NCBI GenBank assembly: GCA_025056965.1
Contig: JANWVF010000041.1
Location: 1 to 46,119 of the forward strand
From: Thermoflexales bacterium
Lineage (GTDB): Bacteria > Chloroflexota > Anaerolineae > J036 > Brachytrichaceae
Length of the DNA stretch: 46,119 nucleotides
Reading direction: 5' to 3'
Position 1 is the first letter of the stretch. The number at the start of each line of letters is the position of its first letter. Below, piece after piece: positions 13,342-24,189 of this stretch. The notes under the pieces are model-generated. The model was not told the origin of the DNA. It was given only the letters and a program-made list of their open reading frames with translations, and made no database searches. A program made the translations under genes and the position numbers.

Positions 13342-14508
13342 TCATGTGGGCGGCAAGCGCGAGCCGCAACTGCGGCAGAACTTCTCTGTGCCGAGGATCG
13401 GTGCGCCACAGGTCGGACAAATTCGCCGCAGGGTAGGCGAGGGCGATGATGGTACTGCGGGCGATGGTGTGGTTGCCGGCGGTGGCGAAACTTTTGGCGT
13501 AGGCGCCTGCTGCGGAGCAAGAGATGTAGCAACGGCAGGCGCCGGTTTGACCGGCTCCGGCGCAGGGACAGAAGCAGGAGATACAGAAGCGGGAGCGGGA
13601 GACGGAGCTGCGGGAGGGAGTGTCGCTGCGGGGGAAGGCGGCTCAGGATTCAATCGCTGTGTGGGTTGAATCGGCGCGCCGGCCACCGGGGCCGGATATG
13701 GATTGGGCGTGATCGGGACGTTGTTCGCGGCCACCTGTGCCTGCAACATGGCCGCCTGAGCAATTTGTCGCGGAGTCAGACCCGGCTTGCGCGCGGCAAG
13801 CGCCGCGCCGAACATGGCGACAACGGCGCCGATCAGCCCTACGCCGCTCGCGATCACCGGTGTGCGCGTGTCAATCAAGTTGATAACCCCAATGCGCATC
13901 TCCGGCAGCTTGTCATTCACCGAGACGCCTAGCCCTGGGAAGCCGGCTGCATTTTGTGCCAGCGAAGCGTTGATCACAGCGTTCAGTCGTTCGCTTAAGT
14001 AGAGCATCGAACCAGCTACGACGACACAGGCCATCAGCGTCAGCGCGATCAGGGTGACGCCCTTGATCAACTGTTCGCCGAAGTAGCCTCGACTGAAGGC
14101 TACGATGACCGCCATGAGGAGCGTCAGCGCCGGCAAAGCAAAGAGCGCGACCTGGAATGGCATGACGAGGCCGGGGAGCGATTCGGTCTGTGCGGCGAGG
14201 TCGCGAATGTAGACTTGCTGCTGCGCCCCGATGTCGTACTGAGCGATCAAGTGCTCACCCCCTGGCTGTTTTTGTAGTTCGCCTGTCAGCGCTGCGATCT
14301 TCGCTGGGAACGTCGCCAAGCCGTTTGCCATCATCAGCGCCTCGTAGCCCGTCACGTTCAGGAAGATCGGTTGGCTGTCGGCTGTCAGATTGATCTGTAA
14401 GCGGGCGAACGTGCGCGTCGGCAGCCACATCAGGACGGCCATGGTCAGCGCTACGGTGATGCAGCCCAGCGCGCAGATTAAATTGTTGATGAAACGAATC
14501 ACTCCCAC
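13342..14508 (-). CDS. Membrane protein with C-terminal zinc ribbon, function unknown
   Basis: The 388-residue protein has hydrophobic segments at about 8-30, 115-138, 150-171 and 219-240, an extracytoplasmic-looking region (35-110) between the first two, then a Pro/Ala-rich low-complexity linker (about 262-360) and a C-terminal zinc ribbon (CPTCG, CRSCG). The zinc ribbon resembles that of the FHA protein encoded at 18030-18605. It is the last gene of the leftward phosphorylation island, 18 nt after kinase 1, and may be a membrane partner or substrate of the kinases. No enzymatic motif is seen. Confidence 0.75.
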   Translation of the reverse strand: MGVIRFINNLICALGCITVALTMAVLMWLPTRTFARLQINLTADSQPIFLNVTGYEALMMANGLATFPAKIAALTGELQKQPGGEHLIAQYDIGAQQQVYIRDLAAQTESLPGLVMPFQVALFALPALTLLMAVIVAFSRGYFGEQLIKGVTLIALTLMACVVVAGSMLYLSERLNAVINASLAQNAAGFPGLGVSVNDKLPEMRIGVINLIDTRTPVIASGVGLIGAVVAMFGAALAARKPGLTPRQIAQAAMLQAQVAANNVPITPNPYPAPVAGAPIQPTQRLNPEPPSPAATLPPAAPSPAPASVSPASVPAPEPVKPAPAVATSLAPQQAPTPKVSPPPATTPSPAVPSSPSPTLRRICPTCGAPILGTEKFCRSCGSRLPPT

Positions 14509-14526: not shown

Positions 14527-16458
14527 CTACGGCGAATTGCCGGTGACGATGACGTAGTAGCGACGCACCGGGAAGCCCTGCTGGTCGCGATGGCTGGTCT
14601 CCGCCTCGTTCGGCGCAACGAGTGCGTTGCATGGGCGATCTTTTGCCCGCGCGCTGGTCATCGCCACGCGCATATCCACGACGACGGTGTTGGTGTCCCG
14701 GCGGGGAGTCACGCGCGCGTGGATGTAATGCTGCTTGCCGGCTTCCCAGTTGAGGAAGTACGACTCGGCGACCGGATAGGCAATCGGCCTTTGTGAAGGC
14801 TGGCAGGTCTCATACGACACCATCTGGTTGCAGCGGTTGCGGGGGGTGATCACCCGGGCGTAGGAGTCGGTGCTGAAAACGCAATTGTCCGGCTCGATGT
14901 TGACGATGTTGTTATCAACGTTGATGAGCTCGATCGCCTCGGCTTCCTGAAAGGAGATCGTGATCGAACCGGCGTCGGCCGCGGCTCCGCCCGCGTTGCT
15001 GCCCCAGATGATCACATCGAACGGCTGGCCTGGGCGAATCGTGCCGGGGATGGCGATGCCATCAATGCGCGGCTGCGGCAGATCGCCGCTGCCTTTGCTC
15101 GGCGCAAGCACGATGACGACCGTCGGCGACGGTGTAGGGGTTGGGCTGGGCGTCGGCGTCACGGTCGGCGTGCGCGTCGGCGTTGGCGTAGGTGTTGATG
15201 TCGGCGTCGCCGTGGGCCTGGCCGTTGGCGTCGGCATTGCCGTGGGTGCAGGCGTGGGTGTGGGTGACGGCGCCGACGTCGGCGTTGCGGTTGTCTCGTC
15301 GGCAGTGGGCGCGATGACGACCGGCGCTTCGATCGGCGTAGGCGTAGCCCGCGGCGTAGCGGTCGGTCGCGGCGTCTGTGTTAGGGTTGGCTCAGGCGCA
15401 GGGGTATTGCTGGGCGTTGGCGTGAGAGTCGGCGCGGGTGTCTCGGTCGGCGCAGGCGATGTCGCAGGTGTGGATCGTGCCTCATTCCTGCCGCCGGCCA
15501 GCACCGATGTCCCGCCGAGCACGTCCAGCGGTGCAAAGCCGAATGCGCTGCTCAGCATCAGCCCAATGCCGGCGCAGAGCAGCGCGCTGATGGTGATGGC
15601 GGAGAGGCCCAGCCCGATGCGCGCGCGTTTGCTGAGCGAAGCCAGCCCCTTACGATGGAGCGCTCTGCGAAACTCCTCGACAGTCTGGAAGCGCTTGCTG
15701 ATCTCGATCTGCGTGGCCTTGGCGATGGCATCGGCGACGGCCGGGCTAACGGCCTTCAAATCGCCGTGGACGCGATCGGCGCGTGGCAGCACGAACGGCG
15801 TCAGGCTAGGGTCATAACCTGTGAGCGCGTGCAGCAGCGTCACGCCAAGCGAGTAGATGTCGCTGTATGGACCGGTCTGTCCTTTGCCGTGTTGCTCCGG
15901 CGGCGCGTAGCCTGCCGTGCCGAACGGCTCGGTATCTGCGCTTTTGCCCTCTTTGAACGTGCGCGCGATGCCGAAGTCAATCAGCTTGATCCGGCCGCCG
16001 GTTGTGAAAATAATGTTGCTCGGCGTGAGGTCGCGATAGATCACCGGCGGCGATTGCGTGTGCAGATAGGTGAGCACGTCGCACAGTTGGTCGGCCAAGT
16101 CGAGCACTTGTTCTTCGGGCAGACCGTACCATTGGCCCACCATGCGCTCGGCCAGCGTCTCGCCTTGGATGTATTCGGTGACGAGGATGGGTTTGTTGTC
16201 CTCGGTGACGAAGTAGTCTATGACCTGCACGATGCCGGGGTGGCTGAGCTGCGACAGCATGCGCGCCGTCGTCTCGAACTGACGCCGGGCGGCCTCGGCG
16301 TCGGCCGACATGCCGATGCCGAGCTTGAATACCTTGACTACTACCTGCCGATTGAACGTGCGCTTGTCGGCAGCTAGGTAGATCGTGGATTGTCCTCCGT
16401 CGGTCATCCAGCGGAGGATCTCGTAACGATCGTTGAGAATCGTTCCCGGGGTCAGCAT
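14527..16458 (-). CDS. Membrane Ser/Thr protein kinase with Cys-containing ectodomain (kinase 1)
   Basis: The 643-residue protein has a cytosolic Hanks-type kinase domain (residues 10-270): Gly-rich loop DGGQSTIY, Lys42 (VVVKVF), probable helix-C Glu62, catalytic loop YRDLTPSN (Asp143, Asn148), DFG (161-163) and GTAGYAPPE (180-188). The usual Lys two residues after the catalytic Asp is Thr145, as in kinase 2. One transmembrane helix (about 281-303) is followed by a Thr/Pro-rich stalk (329-446) and a folded ectodomain (460-643) with four Cys and a beta-rich character, so it may sense an extracellular or envelope signal. It lies 86 nt downstream of paralogous kinase 2. Confidence 0.93.
   Translation of the reverse strand: MLTPGTILNDRYEILRWMTDGGQSTIYLAADKRTFNRQVVVKVFKLGIGMSADAEAARRQFETTARMLSQLSHPGIVQVIDYFVTEDNKPILVTEYIQGETLAERMVGQWYGLPEEQVLDLADQLCDVLTYLHTQSPPVIYRDLTPSNIIFTTGGRIKLIDFGIARTFKEGKSADTEPFGTAGYAPPEQHGKGQTGPYSDIYSLGVTLLHALTGYDPSLTPFVLPRADRVHGDLKAVSPAVADAIAKATQIEISKRFQTVEEFRRALHRKGLASLSKRARIGLGLSAITISALLCAGIGLMLSSAFGFAPLDVLGGTSVLAGGRNEARSTPATSPAPTETPAPTLTPTPSNTPAPEPTLTQTPRPTATPRATPTPIEAPVVIAPTADETTATPTSAPSPTPTPAPTAMPTPTARPTATPTSTPTPTPTRTPTVTPTPSPTPTPSPTVVIVLAPSKGSGDLPQPRIDGIAIPGTIRPGQPFDVIIWGSNAGGAAADAGSITISFQEAEAIELINVDNNIVNIEPDNCVFSTDSYARVITPRNRCNQMVSYETCQPSQRPIAYPVAESYFLNWEAGKQHYIHARVTPRRDTNTVVVDMRVAMTSARAKDRPCNALVAPNEAETSHRDQQGFPVRRYYVIVTGNSP
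15121..15474 (-). repeat. Thr/Pro-rich low-complexity repeat in kinase 1
   Basis: About 118 codons of TP/PT dipeptides (TPTPT, PAPTLTP and the like) form a degenerate 6-bp-periodic tract. The protein segment is an extended stalk of a kind common in Chloroflexota surface proteins and open to O-glycosylation. It also produces a long open Val/Gly-rich frame on the other strand (14960-15817), which is an artefact. Confidence 0.85.
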
Positions 16459-16544: not shown

Positions 16545-17972
16545 TCATCGCTGCTCGTTGCCGGCTGCCCTGGCCGCTATGTCCAGCCTCTGGCCTTGCG
16601 GCGTAGGCTGTGGCGTCGGCGTATTGGCGAGGACTGGTTCGCGTGTGGCCGTGGGCTGTGGCGTTGGGGTGTCAACGAAAACCGGCCGGCGCGTCGGCGT
16701 GGCCGTAGCCGTTCCCCCCGCGGTCACCGTCGCGTCTGAGGTCGGTGTTGGTGAAGCCGATGGTGTGGGCGTCGCAGCCTGGGTCGGTGTTGAGGTCGGC
16801 GTAGGTGTTTCTGTCGGCGTGGCGGTGGGCGTAGGCGTGAGTGATGGCGTCGGTGTGGGCGATGCTGTGGGCGTTGGTGTTGGCGCAGGTGCGTCGGTGG
16901 GTGTATTGGCCGGCGCAGATGTCATTGTAGCCGTGGCTAATCCCCTCGCATCGGGCGCTGCCGTCGCCTGCCCGTTGCCGAATAGTCCTACCGGAGTCGC
17001 AGTCTCACTTGTCGAGCCGCCCGGCAGCGTGCCCAGCGCGCTGGCCAGCATAAGTCCGATGCCACCGCACAACACAAAGGTCACGAAGATTAATCCAGCG
17101 ATGGCGCCGACGTGAGCGCCACGGATAGGCGTCTGGCCGATGCTGATGCTGGGCGAGCGACGACGAGCGCGGCGGATGTCGCGCCGGAATTCCTCGACCG
17201 ACTGGTAACGCTCGGTAATGTCCAGGCGAGTGGCTTTCTCGATCGCGTCGGCCAGCGCCTTGCTCACCTCTTTCAGGTCGGGGTGAACCATGTCTGCGCG
17301 CGGCAGCATAAACGGAGTTAAGCTGGGATCGTAGCCGGTGAGAGCGTAGAGCAACGTCGCGCCGAGTGAGTAGATATCGCTGTAGGGTCCGGTTTGGACG
17401 TTGCCGTATTGCTCAGGTGCGGCGTAGCCCGTCGTCCCAAGCGGTTCGGTATCTGCCGTCTTTCCGATCTTGACGGTGCGCGCGATGCCGAAATCAATCA
17501 GCTTGATCCGACCGCCGGGCGAGATGATGATGTTGCCGGGCGTCAGGTCGCGATAGATGACCGGGGGCGTCCGGCTGTGCAGATAGCTGAGCACGTCGCA
17601 CAGCTGCTCGGCCAGGTCGAGCACCTGCTCTTCCGGCAGGCCGAAGGCCTCTAGCTGCAGGCGTTGATGCAGCGTTTCACCCTCGGCATATTCGGTGATC
17701 AGCAACGGGACATCCCCGTTCAGCACGTACTCGATCACCTGGATGATGCCGGGGTGGTGAAGTTGGGCCAGCATCCGCGCGGACGCTTCGAACTGCTGGA
17801 GTGCCGCTTCGCGCGAGGCCGGCGTGCCCGCGCCGATTTTGAATTCCTTCACCACCACGCGATGGCCGAATGCCCGCTCATCTGTGGCGAGGTAGACGAT
17901 GGACTGGCCGCCCTCGGCGATCTTCTCGACGATGCGGTAGCGTCCGTTGACGAGCTGGCCGGTGACAAGCAT
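16545..17972 (-). CDS. Membrane Ser/Thr protein kinase with Thr/Pro stalk only (kinase 2)
   Basis: The 475-residue paralogue of kinase 1 is similar throughout the kinase domain: EGGQSIVY loop, Lys42, helix-C Glu62, YRDLTPGN (Asp142, Thr144 in the usual Lys position, Asn147), DFG (160-162) and GTTGYAAPE. A transmembrane helix (about 287-311) and a TP-rich tail (about 340-465) follow, but there is no folded ectodomain: the protein ends soon after the stalk. It probably arose by tandem duplication with loss or gain of the sensor domain, and may act as a heteromeric partner of kinase 1. It is 57 nt after the zinc-ribbon FHA gene. Confidence 0.92.
   Translation of the reverse strand: MLVTGQLVNGRYRIVEKIAEGGQSIVYLATDERAFGHRVVVKEFKIGAGTPASREAALQQFEASARMLAQLHHPGIIQVIEYVLNGDVPLLITEYAEGETLHQRLQLEAFGLPEEQVLDLAEQLCDVLSYLHSRTPPVIYRDLTPGNIIISPGGRIKLIDFGIARTVKIGKTADTEPLGTTGYAAPEQYGNVQTGPYSDIYSLGATLLYALTGYDPSLTPFMLPRADMVHPDLKEVSKALADAIEKATRLDITERYQSVEEFRRDIRRARRRSPSISIGQTPIRGAHVGAIAGLIFVTFVLCGGIGLMLASALGTLPGGSTSETATPVGLFGNGQATAAPDARGLATATMTSAPANTPTDAPAPTPTPTASPTPTPSLTPTPTATPTETPTPTSTPTQAATPTPSASPTPTSDATVTAGGTATATPTRRPVFVDTPTPQPTATREPVLANTPTPQPTPQGQRLDIAARAAGNEQR
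16593..16925 (-). repeat. Thr/Pro-rich low-complexity repeat in kinase 2
   Basis: About 110 codons of TP-rich repeats with the longer units VFVDTPTPQPTATREP and VLANTPTPQPTP near the end, an imperfect tandem duplication. Equivalent in position to the stalk of kinase 1, though separately expanded. Confidence 0.8.
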
Positions 17973-18029: not shown

Positions 18030-18605
18030 CTAGCTTTGCACGATGTCGAACCTGACGACGCAGCGGCCCAGCTCGATCCGGTCGCCCGGACACAGTAGCA
18101 CGGGCTGCCCGGTTTCGATGCGTGTGCCGTTGATGCTGGTCCAATTCGTCGTCGTGAGGCTGACGATTACCGGTTGATTGCCGGCAGTGAGCATGATGCG
18201 CGCGTGCCGCCGGGAAACGGTGCGATCCGGGTCGTAGGGCGTCAGGTCAACGTCAGGCCGGACGCCGTTGACAGGGTCCTCTCGACCGATCAGCCAAGTG
18301 TTCGTCGGATTCGGCGGGAGGTGAATGATCGTGCCGTTGCTGCTGATCAGTCGCAGCGCGGTGCTTACGGGTGACTGTTCGATGACCGGGCGGGCAGGTG
18401 CAGCCGGCTGCGGCTTCGGCGGTGCAACTGCTTCGAGGGGTGCACCGCACTCCCCGCAGAACTTGCTGTCGGCCGGGTTGACGTGTCCGCACTGCGCGCA
18501 GGTCAGGTTAACGACCGTCAGCACCGGCCCGCTCAAGCGCGTTCCGCACCGGCTGCAAAAGTTCGCTCCCTCGGCTTGCTCTGCACCACAATTCGGGCAA
18601 ATCAT
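18030..18605 (-). CDS. Double zinc-ribbon FHA protein
   Basis: The 191-residue protein has two tandem zinc ribbons: Cys3, Cys6, Cys17, Cys20 and Cys36, Cys39, Cys50, Cys53, a Pro/Ala linker, and a C-terminal FHA domain (about 85-188). FHA signatures are the GRED turn, SRRHARI (phosphothreonine-binding Ser/Arg/His) and the SINGTRI loop. FHA domains bind phosphothreonine, so this is a soluble reader for the adjacent kinases; its TP-rich neighbours are candidate ligands. No signal peptide. Gene order is VWA-FHA gene, this gene, kinase 2, kinase 1. Confidence 0.9.
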   Translation of the reverse strand: MICPNCGAEQAEGANFCSRCGTRLSGPVLTVVNLTCAQCGHVNPADSKFCGECGAPLEAVAPPKPQPAAPARPVIEQSPVSTALRLISSNGTIIHLPPNPTNTWLIGREDPVNGVRPDVDLTPYDPDRTVSRRHARIMLTAGNQPVIVSLTTTNWTSINGTRIETGQPVLLCPGDRIELGRCVVRFDIVQS

Positions 18606-18637: not shown

Positions 18638-20584
18638 CTAAGAGTTCAGCCGTTGCGTCTTCCGACCTTGCTGAAAGATCAGCTTTGTCATGCCGACTTC
18701 GATCTCGGCGTCCTCCGGCAGCGGCGTGCGCGTCTTGATCGGAAGTGGCATGCGATTCACGCGCGTGCCGTTCGCCGTGCCCTCATCGAGGATGTAGAAC
18801 TGTTGCGTGACCGGGTCGCGCGTGATCTGGAAGTGACGGCTCGACACATAAGGGTCGCTCATGAGCACGACTTCGCACTGCGAGGGGTCGCGCCCGACCC
18901 AGACCGTGTCCGATCCGACCGGCAACGACGCGCCGGTCATCGGCCCCGATACCACCTTGAGCTCGGCGATCGGTTGGCGGTTCAGGCCTAGCCGCTGAGT
19001 GACCATGCGGATGCCGCTTTGTACGCTCTTTGACATGTTGGCGCGCAGCACGGCGAACTGGTCGCTGTAGCGGCGGTTCATGATGATCAGTGCCACAATC
19101 AACCCAAGCGTGATGATCGCCAAGCCGCACAGGCTGGCGGCCAGGGCGGTGTTTTGGCGCAGCCATTGGTCAAACGAGGGCGCCTCAGTTGGCACGAAGG
19201 GTACTGCCGGCACCGAGGCGACCTGCAGCGTCGTGCGCACTGATGGGCTGTTGCTCGTGGTCTCCAGATACGAATCGGTCGCTACGGCCTGGAAGGCATA
19301 GGGGAGCGTCTTGGTGACTACGCTGCGGTCCTCCTTCGGCGGTTGCCAGACCAGCTCGTAGGGTGGGGCATCCACCCGACCGATGGATGTGCCGTTGGCG
19401 AAGAACTCCACGCTCACATCGCGCACTCGCCCATCGGGGAATTCCACCTGCGCGACAATCGTGATCGGTGGCGCGGGTTCAGCAGTCTCCTGGAAGAAAG
19501 TTGTGCCCTCTTGGGGAGCGAGCAGCTTGACCGTCGGTGCTCGGAGCGTGGATGCGAAGCGCACCTCTGCCGTGTCGCTGCCGAGCTGGGTGTTCACCGT
19601 CAGCCGCGCCGAGTGCTCACCGGCCGGCTTGATGCTGGTGAAGCGCAAGATGTACTGCGACCGCTGCGAGTCTATGCGGTTATACATCGCGCGCAGTTGC
19701 TCCTCGGCTTGTTGCAGCGGCACGCTCGAGTCCAGCAGCACGTATCCGCCGTTGGTTTGCGCCGCCAGCGCGCTCATGTTGGTGAATTCGCGCGGGCTGC
19801 GCTGGTTGACTTGCACGGCGAAGATCGAAATGCTGGCCTCGTTAGCCCGCCGCAAGATGTCACCTCGGATGCCCTCATCGCTGAACTTGTTGTCTGCGCC
19901 GTCTGAGAACAACAGGATGATCTTCCGCCGCTGCGCGAGCGCATCGCGGATGGCGACGTCGGGATTGCGCGCCAGCAAATTCACCGCCTGGTTGAGGCCG
20001 TCGAAGAGCGCCGACGTGCGCTCGACCGGTAGCTGAGGAATCGCTTCCAATCGAGCCTTGATCCCATCCAGATCGGTAGTGGGCGGGATGAGTTCGGCAA
20101 ACTTGTTGTCGCCCGTGCCGGTGGTCACAACCAAGCCGACGTAATCTTTGCCGGCGCTGTTGGCTGCCAAGGCCTGCATGAACTGTTGCGCGACGCGGCG
20201 CACGTTCTCGGTGTTGACCACGTTGTAGTCGCGCGTGTTGTTGAGGCCGGCCAGGTCGGCCACGATCACGACGCCGACGCCGGCGTTGTCGGATTCAACG
20301 CTGCTGATTGGGATGGGGCTGTTATCCGCAAGGTTGGTGAGCGTGAAATTCTGTTGCGTGAGTCCGGTCGCTGCGCTGCCGTCCGGCCACACGACGGATG
20401 CCGTGATGGTGTACTCCGGCGCGCGAGTGTTGTCCACCTGTTTCACCTCGAGCGTGGGGCCACCGGTTTGGGCGCCCGCCGCACGAGGCGGGAGCGCAGC
20501 CCCTAAGATGAGCGTGCCCAGTGCAGCGATCGCAAGCACGCGCAGCCAGTTGAGCTTGATTATTCCTACATTCTTCTTGATCAT
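18638..20584 (-). CDS. Exported VWA domain, transmembrane helix and cytosolic FHA domain protein
   Basis: The 648-residue protein has a signal peptide (about 12-38), a von Willebrand A domain (about 104-300), an Ig-like beta domain (350-455), a transmembrane helix (480-502) and a C-terminal FHA domain (540-640; GRD 564-566, SSRH 581-584, NGT 605-607). The MIDAS is altered: the usual D-x-S-x-S is VADLAGLNN (Asp110 kept, both Ser lost), while LFSDGADN (225-232) is present. The topology places the VWA outside and the phosphothreonine reader inside, so it could join an extracellular ligand to phosphorylated kinase or partner in the cytoplasm. The ribosome site is weak (GAGATTAAAG). Confidence 0.9.
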   Translation of the reverse strand: MIKKNVGIIKLNWLRVLAIAALGTLILGAALPPRAAGAQTGGPTLEVKQVDNTRAPEYTITASVVWPDGSAATGLTQQNFTLTNLADNSPIPISSVESDNAGVGVVIVADLAGLNNTRDYNVVNTENVRRVAQQFMQALAANSAGKDYVGLVVTTGTGDNKFAELIPPTTDLDGIKARLEAIPQLPVERTSALFDGLNQAVNLLARNPDVAIRDALAQRRKIILLFSDGADNKFSDEGIRGDILRRANEASISIFAVQVNQRSPREFTNMSALAAQTNGGYVLLDSSVPLQQAEEQLRAMYNRIDSQRSQYILRFTSIKPAGEHSARLTVNTQLGSDTAEVRFASTLRAPTVKLLAPQEGTTFFQETAEPAPPITIVAQVEFPDGRVRDVSVEFFANGTSIGRVDAPPYELVWQPPKEDRSVVTKTLPYAFQAVATDSYLETTSNSPSVRTTLQVASVPAVPFVPTEAPSFDQWLRQNTALAASLCGLAIITLGLIVALIIMNRRYSDQFAVLRANMSKSVQSGIRMVTQRLGLNRQPIAELKVVSGPMTGASLPVGSDTVWVGRDPSQCEVVLMSDPYVSSRHFQITRDPVTQQFYILDEGTANGTRVNRMPLPIKTRTPLPEDAEIEVGMTKLIFQQGRKTQRLNS

Positions 20585-20741: not shown

Positions 20742-22265
20742 TCACAAAAACTTTCCGATTGCAACGGCGATGTTGTCCTCACCTCCGTTCGCATTAGCCA
20801 AATCCACGAGGCGGTCGCAGGCGATCTGTGCGTTCGACGAAAAGATCAACACATCTCGCATCGCCTCGTCACGCACCATCTCCCATAACCCGTCCGAGCA
20901 CACCATCAGCCAGTCGCCTGGCTGCAGGGGCACCGGCTCGTGCGCGTCGGATATGCCGGTCTTCGGATCGCCGAGCGACCGGTAGATCAGACTGCGTTCG
21001 GGATGCGTGTAGCGGTCTTCGTCGCGCAGCAGGCCGGCATCCACGAGCGACTGGACGAGTGAATGGTCTTTCGAGAGCCGGATGAGTGGACTGTCCTCGC
21101 TCGAGCGCCACAAGTAGATGCGGCTGTCGCCGACATTTCCCAGATAGGCTTTGCCATCTACCACCAGGGCGAAAGCGAGCGTGGCGCCCATCTGATTCCC
21201 GCGCCGCTCCCCCTCGGCCACGATCAAATTGTTGATGTCCTTGACCGTACGCTGCACCCAGGCGTTAATCTCGGCCGGCGAGAGCTTCTTGCCGGATGCG
21301 AACAGCTGTTGTGCTGCCTCGGTCAAGGCGCGAATGGCCAGCTCGCTGGCGACCTCGCCGGCTTCCACGCCCCCCATCCCGTCGGCGACTGCCAGCAATA
21401 TCGGCTTGCGCCGTGGCTGGCCCTCGCCTGCCGCGCCTGTCGTGATCTCAATGGCGCATACGCTGTCCTCATTATCGGCGCGCACCATGCCGGTGCTGGT
21501 GGCGTGGCCGAGTTCGGCCTCCAGCCCATCGCCATGATGGGCGGAGTCGGCCTTGACGCGCCGCAGTCCGCTCAGCAACATCGCCGCGTTAATTCGCTCG
21601 TGTGGGTCGGCTGCGCGACGCAGCGCATATCGCACGTGCGACTGCGCGTCAACCAGCCGAGTATGCGCCAGTGCCGCGCACAATGCTCGCACGTCGGCAT
21701 ACGCTGCTTCTGGCTCGTCTTCCAGCAGAACCAGCGCGCCGAGGTTGCGCCAGTGTGCGCCTGCCGAATTCACGCCGATGTGTCGCATCACGGCGTCCTC
21801 GTCGGTCAATCTAAAAGCCACGCCGCAACTGTGCAAGATGTCCAGCCCTTCGACTAACTGCTCGAACCAGATCTCCCATTGGCGCTTCGGCTGCTGGTTT
21901 AGCCAAGCCACGCTCATCAGGTCTGGCGCAACGACCTCGGGCACGTAATACCGGATGACCCGGTCGAACCAGCCCATCTCGAACATCGGCAGCAGGCGTG
22001 CCAAGTAAGGGGACGGCTTTTGTTCGAGCCGTTCGCTCAGCGTGAGCGTGCCGGCCAGATCCAGCAGTGCCAACCCCTCGTGCAACAAGAAGCACGCCGA
22101 GCCATCGGCGGCGACAGCCTCATAGCTGCGCGAGCGGCTGTTTGCGTGCAGGCCTTCGTCGAAGGCAGTAATGATGTATGACGTGTTGCGCGTCGCATCG
22201 GTTACATATTCGCCGATCGGCAGCGGATCCGAAGCCGTGGAGAGCGTAGCAGTCGAAAGGGTCAT
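20742..22265 (-). CDS. Pseudokinase-PP2C fusion protein phosphatase
   Basis: The C-terminal half (about 250-507) is a PP2C-type Ser/Thr phosphatase with its metal-binding residues intact: RADNEDS (262-268), DGMGG (295-299), GNVGDSR (376-382), SDGLWE (457-462) and GGEDN (494-498). The N-terminal 240 residues resemble a degenerate protein kinase C-lobe: LHSCGVAFRLTDEDAVM (144-160) in place of the H-x-x-x-x-x-H-R-D-L-K-P-x-N-x-x loop, ADVRALCAALAH (190-201) in place of the D-x-Y-S-L-G helix, and DPHERINAAMLLSGL (220-234) in place of the closing helix. No catalytic Asp, Lys or DFG remains. It is 17 nt after the small FHA gene. Confidence 0.88.
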   Translation of the reverse strand: MTLSTATLSTASDPLPIGEYVTDATRNTSYIITAFDEGLHANSRSRSYEAVAADGSACFLLHEGLALLDLAGTLTLSERLEQKPSPYLARLLPMFEMGWFDRVIRYYVPEVVAPDLMSVAWLNQQPKRQWEIWFEQLVEGLDILHSCGVAFRLTDEDAVMRHIGVNSAGAHWRNLGALVLLEDEPEAAYADVRALCAALAHTRLVDAQSHVRYALRRAADPHERINAAMLLSGLRRVKADSAHHGDGLEAELGHATSTGMVRADNEDSVCAIEITTGAAGEGQPRRKPILLAVADGMGGVEAGEVASELAIRALTEAAQQLFASGKKLSPAEINAWVQRTVKDINNLIVAEGERRGNQMGATLAFALVVDGKAYLGNVGDSRIYLWRSSEDSPLIRLSKDHSLVQSLVDAGLLRDEDRYTHPERSLIYRSLGDPKTGISDAHEPVPLQPGDWLMVCSDGLWEMVRDEAMRDVLIFSSNAQIACDRLVDLANANGGEDNIAVAIGKFL

Positions 22266-22282
22266 TTAGGACGCATCCACCT

Positions 22283-22693
22283 TTAATTTTGCACCACAAA
22301 CTGGAAGACGGCCTGCTGCGATTTACCTAGCGAGATCGTCACCCCCGAGCGCAAACGATTATGCCGCGAGCGTCGGCCGTCCACAAACATGTGTTCGCCT
22401 TTGATCAAGCGCGCCTCCCATCCCATGCCGTCCGGCGTACGGACGATCTCAGCATGGTCTTCGACCAAGTCGTCCACCGACTTGCCGGTGATGCGATACC
22501 AAGACGTACGACCCAGGCGAATTGGCTCGGTCAACGGAAGGCGCTTGCTGCCGATCACCAGATATGCTGCCGGTGGCTTCGGCGTGCGACGACGCGAAAA
22601 CAACCCGAACAGACCGGCCAAGCCCCCCGCACCTAGCAGGATGACGTCGGCGCAGGCCGTAAACGTTTCGGGTGATGCAACGGGAGTGCTCAT
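22283..22693 (-). CDS. Small membrane-anchored FHA-like protein
   Basis: The 136-residue protein has a hydrophobic N-terminal segment (about 15-33, LLGAGGLAGLFGLF) and an FHA-like domain (about 44-134): IRLGRTSWYRI for the first Arg turn, EDHAEIV for the S-x-x-H strand with Ser replaced by Glu/Asp, and FVDGRRSRHNRL for the N-G-T loop with Asn lost. Phosphothreonine binding is therefore uncertain. Its ATG overlaps the stop of the degenerate PP2C gene (ATGA), implying coupled translation and perhaps a complex between the two. Confidence 0.78.
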   Translation of the reverse strand: MSTPVASPETFTACADVILLGAGGLAGLFGLFSRRRTPKPPAAYLVIGSKRLPLTEPIRLGRTSWYRITGKSVDDLVEDHAEIVRTPDGMGWEARLIKGEHMFVDGRRSRHNRLRSGVTISLGKSQQAVFQFVVQN

Positions 22694-23379
22694 CGGTTAA
22701 ATGATCTACCGAAGATGCTCGTGACCAATGAGCGTTGCGGCCCGAAGACGACGGCCCCCAAGGCCTCGCGCGCACCCTTCTCCTTTGCCATCTTCAGCAA
22801 GTGCTGCGCGGCGCTCTGCGGCGCACGTGAATACACGCTCAGCGCAATGTCGTACTCATCTAGCTTTTCGCTCAACGACGAGGTGCAAATCAGCATGCTA
22901 TCCTCTGGTTCTAGCTTGCGCTGAGCGGTGGGCTCCATGCGGATCGCATCAATGCGCCCGCTGGCCTGGATGCAGTAGCAGCGCACCGCGCCCGCGGCAA
23001 TGCCGTACCACTGGTTGCCGACTATTGCGGCGATCACGACGGATGGACGCACCGTCGCCTCATCGGTCTGCGCTCGGCTCTGGATTGGGCGGCTTGCCTT
23101 GTCAAGCGCAGCGCGCAGGGCGATCAGCCGATCCACGTCAGGTGGAACCTCCTCGTAGGCCTTGGTGATCTGCTCTATCAAGCGCTGGCCGGCCGATGGT
23201 TCGCCTTGGACATCGGCGATCGCCATCAGCAGCCCGCGCGGCGAGTTCAACGCGGCGCGCGCGTCCGGATGCGGACCGGCCGGGAAGACGGCAGCACCAA
23301 CCGCGCTGCCGAATGCGCTCCAACTCGCTTGCCAGCCTAGGCGCAGGCGAAATTGATCGAACCTTCGTCCGCCGAACAC
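22690..23379 (-). CDS. Degenerate PP2C-like protein (predicted pseudophosphatase)
   Basis: The 229-residue protein aligns along its length with PP2C landmarks but lacks the metal ligands. LLMAIADVQGEPSAGQ (50-65) stands for LLAVADGMGG-x-x-A-G, keeping Asp56 but losing the Gly-Met-Gly-Gly turn. GNQWYGIAAGAVRCYCIQ (121-138) stands for G-x-Y-x-x-N-V-G-D-S-R with Asp lost. LEPEDSMLICTSSLSEKL (156-173) stands for L-x-x-G-D-x-x-L-L-C-S-D-G-L with the Asp lost. KGAREALGAVV (201-211) stands for G-G-x-D-N-I-T-V-V with Asp and Asn lost. It probably binds rather than hydrolyses phosphoprotein. The start is a GTG with TAAACT 6 nt upstream and no Shine-Dalgarno sequence. Confidence 0.72.
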   Translation of the reverse strand: MFGGRRFDQFRLRLGWQASWSAFGSAVGAAVFPAGPHPDARAALNSPRGLLMAIADVQGEPSAGQRLIEQITKAYEEVPPDVDRLIALRAALDKASRPIQSRAQTDEATVRPSVVIAAIVGNQWYGIAAGAVRCYCIQASGRIDAIRMEPTAQRKLEPEDSMLICTSSLSEKLDEYDIALSVYSRAPQSAAQHLLKMAKEKGAREALGAVVFGPQRSLVTSIFGRSFNR

Positions 23380-23421: not shown

Positions 23422-24189
23422 CTACAGGAAGAGTTCCTCGCTTGTCCCGCGCGCGTCCAGCTCGAACTCGATCTCCTGAATCGGCGGCTTGCTATACATC
23501 CAGTGCAGGCCGTAACGCGCTGCCGAGCCGATGCGCGCAAACACTGCCTCGTCCAGGTATCCGCCTTCCACGTGGGCCGTGTAAAGATTAACTTGCGTAG
23601 CGTCGTCCCAGGTCACCCCTAGCGCCTTCAGCGTCCGCTCGATCGCGTCCATCACGAACGCTGCCTTCTCGCGCATCGCGTCCGGCGTAGTCTCGCCGAC
23701 CCGCACGATGGATTCGCGAGTCGGTGGACCGTCCTTCAATTCGCCGGCGCCGGAGACAATAAACGCTTTGCGGTCGTCGGGGCGCGTACGCGGTGCGGTG
23801 TAGGTGAAGGCGAATAGACCCGGCTCGCTCGGCGCAACGGCCGCCGGGAGTGGCGCAACGTTGGTGCGCGTCATCGTCGCGCGCCCATCCTGCCGCAGGC
23901 CGTATCGGTCGAGCAGGGCGACGTAGGCCTGGTTGAACGCGCCGAATTCCTCGAACGTCAACGGCTGCGGCACGCGCACCTCCGCGCCGCATAGCGCAGC
24001 CATCGGCCGGCCGACGCTGGTCAGATGGCGTTCGATGGCTTCTAACCCTTGCGCCACGGGCATCACGTGGCGAAAGGTGGCGTGAATCAACACAAATCCC
24101 TCATCGGCGATCACGCCGCGGCAATATGTGCCGCTGCCTTCCAGGTAAGAGAAGTTGCCTTCGGGTCGGTGAATCATTGAGGCTCGCAT
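23422..24189 (-). CDS. Rid (YjgF/YER057c/UK114)-family protein, two-domain
   Basis: The 255-residue protein has an N-terminal domain (about 1-130) and a C-terminal Rid-like domain (about 135-255). The latter shows IVSGAGELKDG, TPDAMREKAAFVMDAIERTLKALGVTWDDATQVNLYTAH and a final IEFELDARG segment, matching the trimeric Rid fold. The residue equivalent to the RidA active-site Arg is not obvious, so imine deaminase activity is uncertain. Two-domain members include 2-aminomuconate-type deaminases. It is transcribed towards the phosphorylation island and is divergent from the hybrid histidine kinase. ATG 24177 is an alternative start. Confidence 0.7.
   Translation of the reverse strand: MRASMIHRPEGNFSYLEGSGTYCRGVIADEGFVLIHATFRHVMPVAQGLEAIERHLTSVGRPMAALCGAEVRVPQPLTFEEFGAFNQAYVALLDRYGLRQDGRATMTRTNVAPLPAAVAPSEPGLFAFTYTAPRTRPDDRKAFIVSGAGELKDGPPTRESIVRVGETTPDAMREKAAFVMDAIERTLKALGVTWDDATQVNLYTAHVEGGYLDEAVFARIGSAARYGLHWMYSKPPIQEIEFELDARGTSEELFL

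Follow-up and report, generated by a model that had tools for sequence, protein, structure and literature searches.

The minus strand of the window (the whole stretch of DNA analysed, 46,119 nucleotides from a Thermoflexales bacterium) encodes a protein in which a PP2C-type Ser/Thr phosphatase is preceded by a half whose sequence shares its ancestry with protein kinases. We lean towards reading this protein as the Stp1/PstP-like PP2C of the genome, whose N-terminal half, a kinase domain without catalytic function, would serve as a docking or regulatory module near the kinases and FHA proteins of the same operon. A pseudokinase fused to an intact-looking PP2C had been proposed in a preliminary description, and this proposal was supported by sequence profiles with their controls. 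The features of the region are listed in Table 1.

Table 1. Features of the operon in minus-strand order, with the two parts of the fusion protein below its reading frame
Feature	Position	Strand	Basis or remark
Predicted degenerate PP2C (pseudophosphatase), 229 aa, GTG start	22690..23379	-	hhalign, PDB, motifs, NCBIfam
Hydrophobic stretch and weak FHA-like domain, 136 aa	22283..22693	-	Pfam FHA E 0.066, below cut-off
Pseudokinase-PP2C fusion ORF	20742-22265	-	ATG start, 507 aa
Pseudokinase module, residues 1-245 (core ~15-238)	21531..22265	-	Profile comparisons (profile-profile, PDB) with shuffled controls
PP2C (PPM) Ser/Thr phosphatase domain, residues 252-507 and stop	20742..21512	-	Pfam, PDB match, motifs
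VWA protein, C-terminal FHA domain	18638..20584	-	Pfam
Double zinc ribbon and FHA protein	18030..18605	-	Pfam
Hanks-type Ser/Thr kinase 2, hydrophobic segment after kinase domain	16545..17972	-	Pkinase E 2.6e-36
Hanks-type Ser/Thr kinase 1, hydrophobic segment after kinase domain	14527..16458	-	Pkinase E 2.7e-34
388-aa protein, C-terminal zinc ribbon, last gene of conserved cluster	13342..14508	-	

The two halves of the fusion protein

Residues 258-504 matched the Mycobacterium phosphatase PstP (1txo) in a PDB search (E = 1.2e-27; E = 2.3e-28 for the PP2C half), and Pfam PP2C_2 was found above its cut-off in the C-terminal half. The metal-ligand motifs RADNED, ADGMGG, GDSR, CSDG and GGEDN were all kept, as the preliminary description had stated. 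The NCBIfam family Stp1_PP2C_phos (NF033484) gave 196.1 bits (E = 5.9e-58), which is below its curated cut-off of 230 bits. The fusion was the sole PP2C_2 match in the window's genome, compared with seven Pkinase places over the Pfam cut-off; a single PP2C_2 match was likewise found in eight of the nine genomes of the genus. At loci named Candidatus Roseilinea (Anaerolineae lineage), the best segments of the whole protein were 78-89 percent identical in five of six cases. One genus member (L016 / L026, 532 aa) also carries seven PGAS repeats in a PP2C loop.

For the N-terminal half, Pfam returned no family at E <= 1 and NCBIfam no kinase match. Since both collections are blind to the N-terminal half of the fusion, such proteins would be filed as plain phosphatases. 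Profile-profile comparison was carried out with 13 N-terminal halves of the window clade (A1), 19 kinase-like halves of wider Chloroflexota relatives (A6), and four real kinases encoded in the genome, among them the window's two (A8). A1 and A6 aligned nearly end to end (E = 1.4e-15 over 208 columns, score 106.8), and A6 in turn matched the real kinases (E = 2.3e-13 over 129 columns, score 93.9). This two-step chain, which bears out the earlier description of the half as kinase-like, stood far above the best of 100 column shuffles per pair (25.5 for A1-A6, 20.1 for A6-A8, 22.0 for A1-A8) and above the reversed-profile controls (13.8 for A1-A6, 12.8 for A6-A8). The direct comparison of A1 with A8 was weak (44 columns, E = 0.00024, score 35.0). 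A PDB search with A6 gave 843 distinct sequences at E <= 10, and the best 60 of these 843 were all kinases or kinase homologues by name; the top matches were EGFR (1.7e-08), the ErbB3 pseudokinase (4e-05) and PDK1 (4e-04), over the stretch from alpha-E to DFG. With A1, seven PDB matches were obtained (best E = 0.0021).

The landmarks claimed earlier were located by the profile alignments where they had been placed, i.e. in the catalytic-loop region, in alpha-F (ADVRALCAAL aligned to SDIYSLGATL) and in the last helices. Models from AlphaFold2, computed from six close sequences, reached a mean pLDDT of 43.6 for the N-terminal half alone and 45.7 for the full length; as much of the certain PP2C half also remained below 50, these low values are uninformative on the N-terminal fold. 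Foldseek on the low-confidence N-terminal model gave no match at E <= 0.001 (PLK1 came first with E = 0.24, which is not significant), and VIA-align on the full-length low-confidence model found PP2C-type chains over residues 257-500, with the N-terminal half outside the matched range. It is extremely improbable that the similarity to kinases arose by chance in a module of unrelated fold. The low model confidence, the silence of Pfam and NCBIfam and the weak A1-A8 comparison would suit such a coincidence, but it would have to account for the controlled two-step chain, for the direct match of the A6 profile to the window's module (E = 2.6e-08 among 11 window proteins), and for the kinases among the PDB matches of the window-clade profile (six of seven).

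The catalytic residues of the kinase-like half were largely replaced. Asn174-Leu-Gly stands in place of DFG, with loss of the DFG Asp. His162 stands for the catalytic Asn; no HRD motif is present, and Asp157, five residues before His162, has the spacing of the HRD Asp. The beta-3 Lys is probably replaced by His62, judging from the correspondence of LLHE to VVVKE. This position was placed by eye from the A1/A6/A7 alignments together with the window kinases, and holds Lys in L056 to L059. The module had been described as lacking the catalytic Lys, Asp and DFG; the loss of the DFG Asp stood, that of Lys is probable, whereas an Asp remains at the HRD spacing.

Residues were also tallied in an alignment of 38 family members and four kinases. 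Asp occupied the HRD-Asp position in 12 members and the DFG-Asp position in seven (Asn in 16), and the catalytic Asn was Asn in one and His in 27; by this alignment, none of the 38 combined HRD-Asp, Asn and DFG-Asp. A corresponding tally for the beta-3 Lys was dropped, because the zinc-ribbon insert had caused the Lys column to be misplaced. Decay in the relatives is graded, with DFG kept in L060 and Asp at the HRD position in L062, L064 and L065. With the DFG Asp, the Asn and, by inference, the Lys replaced, catalysis by the usual kinase mechanism appears very unlikely in the N-terminal half, although Asp157 keeps this short of certainty. Another ATP-dependent activity, as in SidJ or SelO, with Asp157 or other residues repurposed, would be in keeping with an Asp at the HRD-Asp spacing in eight of nine genus sequences (L017 has Glu). 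The accessible part of a 2025 review (PMC12599244) treats pseudokinases that have acquired new chemistries. We consider such an activity improbable, however: His occupies the inferred Lys position throughout the 13 A1 rows, the genus has Asn or Lys at the DFG-Asp position where the sister genus has Ile or Leu, and residues at these catalytic sites differ among relatives (e.g. Arg at the HRD-Asp position in three sister-genus sequences).

Distribution, selection and wider relatives

Fusion orthologues were detected in 13 of the 60 genomes searched, including the window's own; many of the genomes used are draft assemblies. They occurred in all nine genomes of the genus and all three of the sister genus (g3); the thirteenth is a fragment cut by a contig end, from the same family. 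Thirteen PP2C loci were examined, eight of them from the window's taxonomic family, and none of these eight carried the kinase-like module; the fusion is not universal in the family. Median dN/dS among the nine genus members (Nei-Gojobori) was 0.109 for the kinase-like half (35 pairs) and 0.095 for the PP2C half (36 pairs), and by these sequence comparisons both halves are under similar purifying selection. Together with a mean identity of 83 percent for the kinase-like half within the genus and the presence of the fusion in 12 of 12 genomes of the two genera, this makes it very improbable that the N-terminal half is a decaying relic without function, even though it has drifted strongly from the other family members and lobes and ribbon have been lost in different lineages.

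A tree was computed from 48 PP2C rows, in which the window clade came out as one group (100/100) beside L074 and L075 (98/90). Three unfused rows fell among the 35 fused ones in the free tree, and forcing all 35 together was not rejected (p-AU 0.129), which does not demonstrate a single origin of the fusion. A tblastn search with L060 in 72,556 plasmid records gave, among the matches listed (25 of 203 records), none with 80 percent cover (best 63 percent), and its kinase-like part alone gave two weak records.

Wider relatives were collected with successive profiles. At E 0.01, the class search with A1 matched 14 of 298 genomes, some of the weak matches being spurious; the weak loci L041, L042 and L043 were unrelated ORFs by eye. 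A4, a profile of A1 and distant class relatives, yielded 20 more loci (L054-L073). In 18 of them the frame also contains a PP2C signature; in the other two (L063 and L067) it reaches the locus end without one. The A4 class search at 0.001 matched 206 of the 298 genomes, which is not a prevalence of the fusion, since most weak rows align only over about positions 11-140 and many of them are likely real kinases or other proteins.

A four-cysteine ribbon is inserted in the N-lobe in 18 of the 19 A6 rows (all but L073); most relatives from other families and classes have such a zinc ribbon, and several relatives show a clearer kinase pattern, e.g. WIDFGAAQ in L060 and YLHHHGICWPEITARHILV in L054. 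The window clade is without the ribbon and has kept both lobes. The A6 profile was also run against 350 phylum genomes and found matches in 99 of these at E 1e-6, some of which are not fusions. Eleven phylum loci were read: (i) two had the two-lobed module with the ribbon (L074, L075); (ii) four had the two-lobed module without it (L081, L084, L090, L094); and (iii) five had only the N-lobe and ribbon, directly before the PP2C (L082, L087, L092, L099, L103). A sixth half pseudokinase of this last kind, with N-lobe and ribbon and without C-lobe, came from the window's own class (L153). Within the family, a kinase domain can be followed through progressive erosion until only a zinc-ribbon N-lobe is left.

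The operon and its putative pseudophosphatase

On the minus strand, the cluster runs from the 229-aa protein through the FHA-like 136-aa protein, the fusion, the VWA-FHA protein, the zinc ribbon-FHA protein, kinase 2 and kinase 1 to the 388-aa protein. Two nearby active-looking kinases had been noted in the preliminary description; both matched Pkinase (Table 1) and keep VVVK, YRDxxxxN and DFG. In both, YRD replaces HRD, and a Thr/Pro-rich tail follows the hydrophobic segment. The order from the FHA-like gene to kinase 1 was kept in all six loci of the two genera, with the FHA-like gene adjoining the fusion in each; the 229-aa gene was adjacent to this stretch in four of the six, and so was the last gene, encoding the 388-aa protein, in four of the six. 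The FHA-like protein, whose hydrophobic stretch is N-terminal, has presumably lost the Ser and Asn that FHA domains usually have at the phosphothreonine site. Upstream of the cluster, a 255-aa protein (23422-24189, minus strand) showed a weak RidA-like match (Ribonuc_L-PSP, E = 0.012).

The 229-aa protein is newly found and was absent from the preliminary description. By hhalign it matched PP2Cs with E = 1.1e-10 over 125 columns, against E = 0.37 for kinases. The best nine of its 18 matches in a PDB profile search were PP2Cs (top E = 1.1e-04), and NCBIfam Stp1 gave E = 7e-07. Its motifs ADVQGE, GAVR, CTSS and GAREAL take the place of ADGMGG, GDSR, CSDG and GGEDNI, the metal-ligand motifs being lost except for one Asp. 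The protein is, as far as these comparisons indicate, a degenerate PP2C and the second dead-looking enzyme of the operon. Strong matches to it were found in exactly the 12 fusion-bearing genomes of the 41 searched; elsewhere, weak matches fell in different frames of greater length, of which at least some are PP2C places. In G010 and G017, its gene lies on another contig than the fusion.

Separate kinase ORFs were counted in the fetched stretches around fused PP2Cs (20 regions, of which L123 was left out as too short, leaving 19). Such an ORF was present at 14 of the 19 loci and none was seen at five; beyond the two genera, then, fused PP2Cs do not always have a kinase nearby. These five loci bear on the main rival to docking, namely that the kinase-like half is an allosteric ligand sensor or a zinc/redox sensor switching the fused PP2C on and off. 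Since some relatives retain only the N-lobe with its zinc ribbon, a sensor or binding module fits as well as docking on kinases, and the ribbon present in nearly all A6 rows points in the same direction. We nevertheless regard a sensor as rather unlikely here, where the clade of the window is without the ribbon and has both lobes, and where the kinases belong to the same conserved operon.

Known systems and the proposed role

PP2Cs of the PstP / Stp1 type are the usual partners of Hanks kinases. The fusion resembles them in that its PP2C half matches solved bacterial PP2Cs and keeps the motifs, and differs in having a dead kinase in front. A further comparison concerns the NCBIfam model PRK14559 (NF011149, 'serine/threonine phosphatase', 642 positions), which has a C-terminal PP2C as the fusion does. 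The fusion was rejected as a member (81 bits versus a curated cut-off of 374, over the PP2C part only). L060 and L075 matched model positions 302-631 and 302-633, respectively, reaching about 80 residues upstream of their PP2C part. This overhang is a hint that PRK14559 phosphatases may share part of the kinase-like region; the pseudokinase parts of the relatives taken alone gave no PRK14559 match. PRK14559 exceeded its cut-off in one of 14 control genomes. Proteins of this type occur in cyanobacteria, and a cyanobacterial connection through PRK14559 is a lead only.

According to the available part of a survey of bacteria (PMC12088040), the annotated PP2C proteins have no further domain in 90 percent of cases; zinc-ribbon PP2Cs are recorded there in Pseudomonadota, Cyanobacteriota and Chloroflexota, and Pkinase-PP2C proteins mainly in Pseudomonadota. 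Its text does not use the word 'pseudokinase'. The pseudokinase families of the 2025 review (ActPs1-3, GLW, CP1, DYD and DLHK; PMC12599244) share with the fusion, as far as the accessible text goes, a Hanks-type descent and the loss of catalytic motifs; 'PP2C', 'Chloroflex' and 'zinc' do not occur in its text. CP1 pseudokinases are tied to a COG3899 domain and not to PP2C in the part available, and membership of the fusion in CP1 was rejected, as only PP2C follows the pseudokinase and no COG3899 linkage was found. PP2C-kinase fusions of Pseudomonas and Deinococcus (PMC1262709) likewise hold both domains in one chain, but from the accessible part of that paper the PP2C is N-terminal to the kinase domain, whereas the present fusion has its kinase domain first, and that domain is dead. 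The KKP kinase-kinase-phosphatase modules (PMC11341870) also bring a PP2C and two kinases together. In the portion of that paper at hand they are a triplet of phosphatase followed by two kinases, while here two FHA genes intervene and the PP2C bears a pseudokinase; owing to these two genes the operon was not counted as a KKP. Within the literature covered, outside of which most subscription papers lay, no paper was seen to describe a pseudokinase-PP2C fusion, and the accessible parts of PMC9430166, PMC7159879 and PMC11863333 do not describe it.

By analogy with MviN and EssB, two pseudokinases that act as scaffolds (PMC12599244, available part), we think it plausible that the N-terminal half would dock the PP2C on the two neighbouring kinases, as the preliminary description had suggested; the conserved operon context speaks for such a role. 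In this proposal, the pseudokinase half would no longer phosphorylate and would dock or regulate through kinase-fold heterodimerisation or substrate mimicry, so holding the PP2C near the kinases and FHA proteins of the operon. The PP2C could then dephosphorylate the activation loops of the kinases and FHA-bound partners, with the upstream degenerate PP2C as a probable non-catalytic partner in the same complex. A broader reading, which we offer tentatively, is that each catalytic arm is paired with a dead twin (a pseudokinase within the sole PP2C_2 protein, and a pseudophosphatase encoded by its own gene) in an operon that also has two active kinases and FHA readers. The twins might be adaptors for, or competitors of, one another, with the pseudokinase holding the phosphatase on the kinases and the pseudophosphatase shielding phosphosites or competing with the real phosphatase. 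The fusion would be an old Chloroflexota invention of which some lineages keep only the zinc-binding kinase N-lobe.

The fusion bears on how substrates are found by bacterial PP2Cs, of which a genome has few and most consist of one domain. With a pseudokinase on the sole PP2C_2 protein, kinases and a dead phosphatase in one operon, the cluster is a compact system for testing docking by dead kinases. It suggests that dead enzyme copies help to steer protein phosphorylation in this bacterial group.
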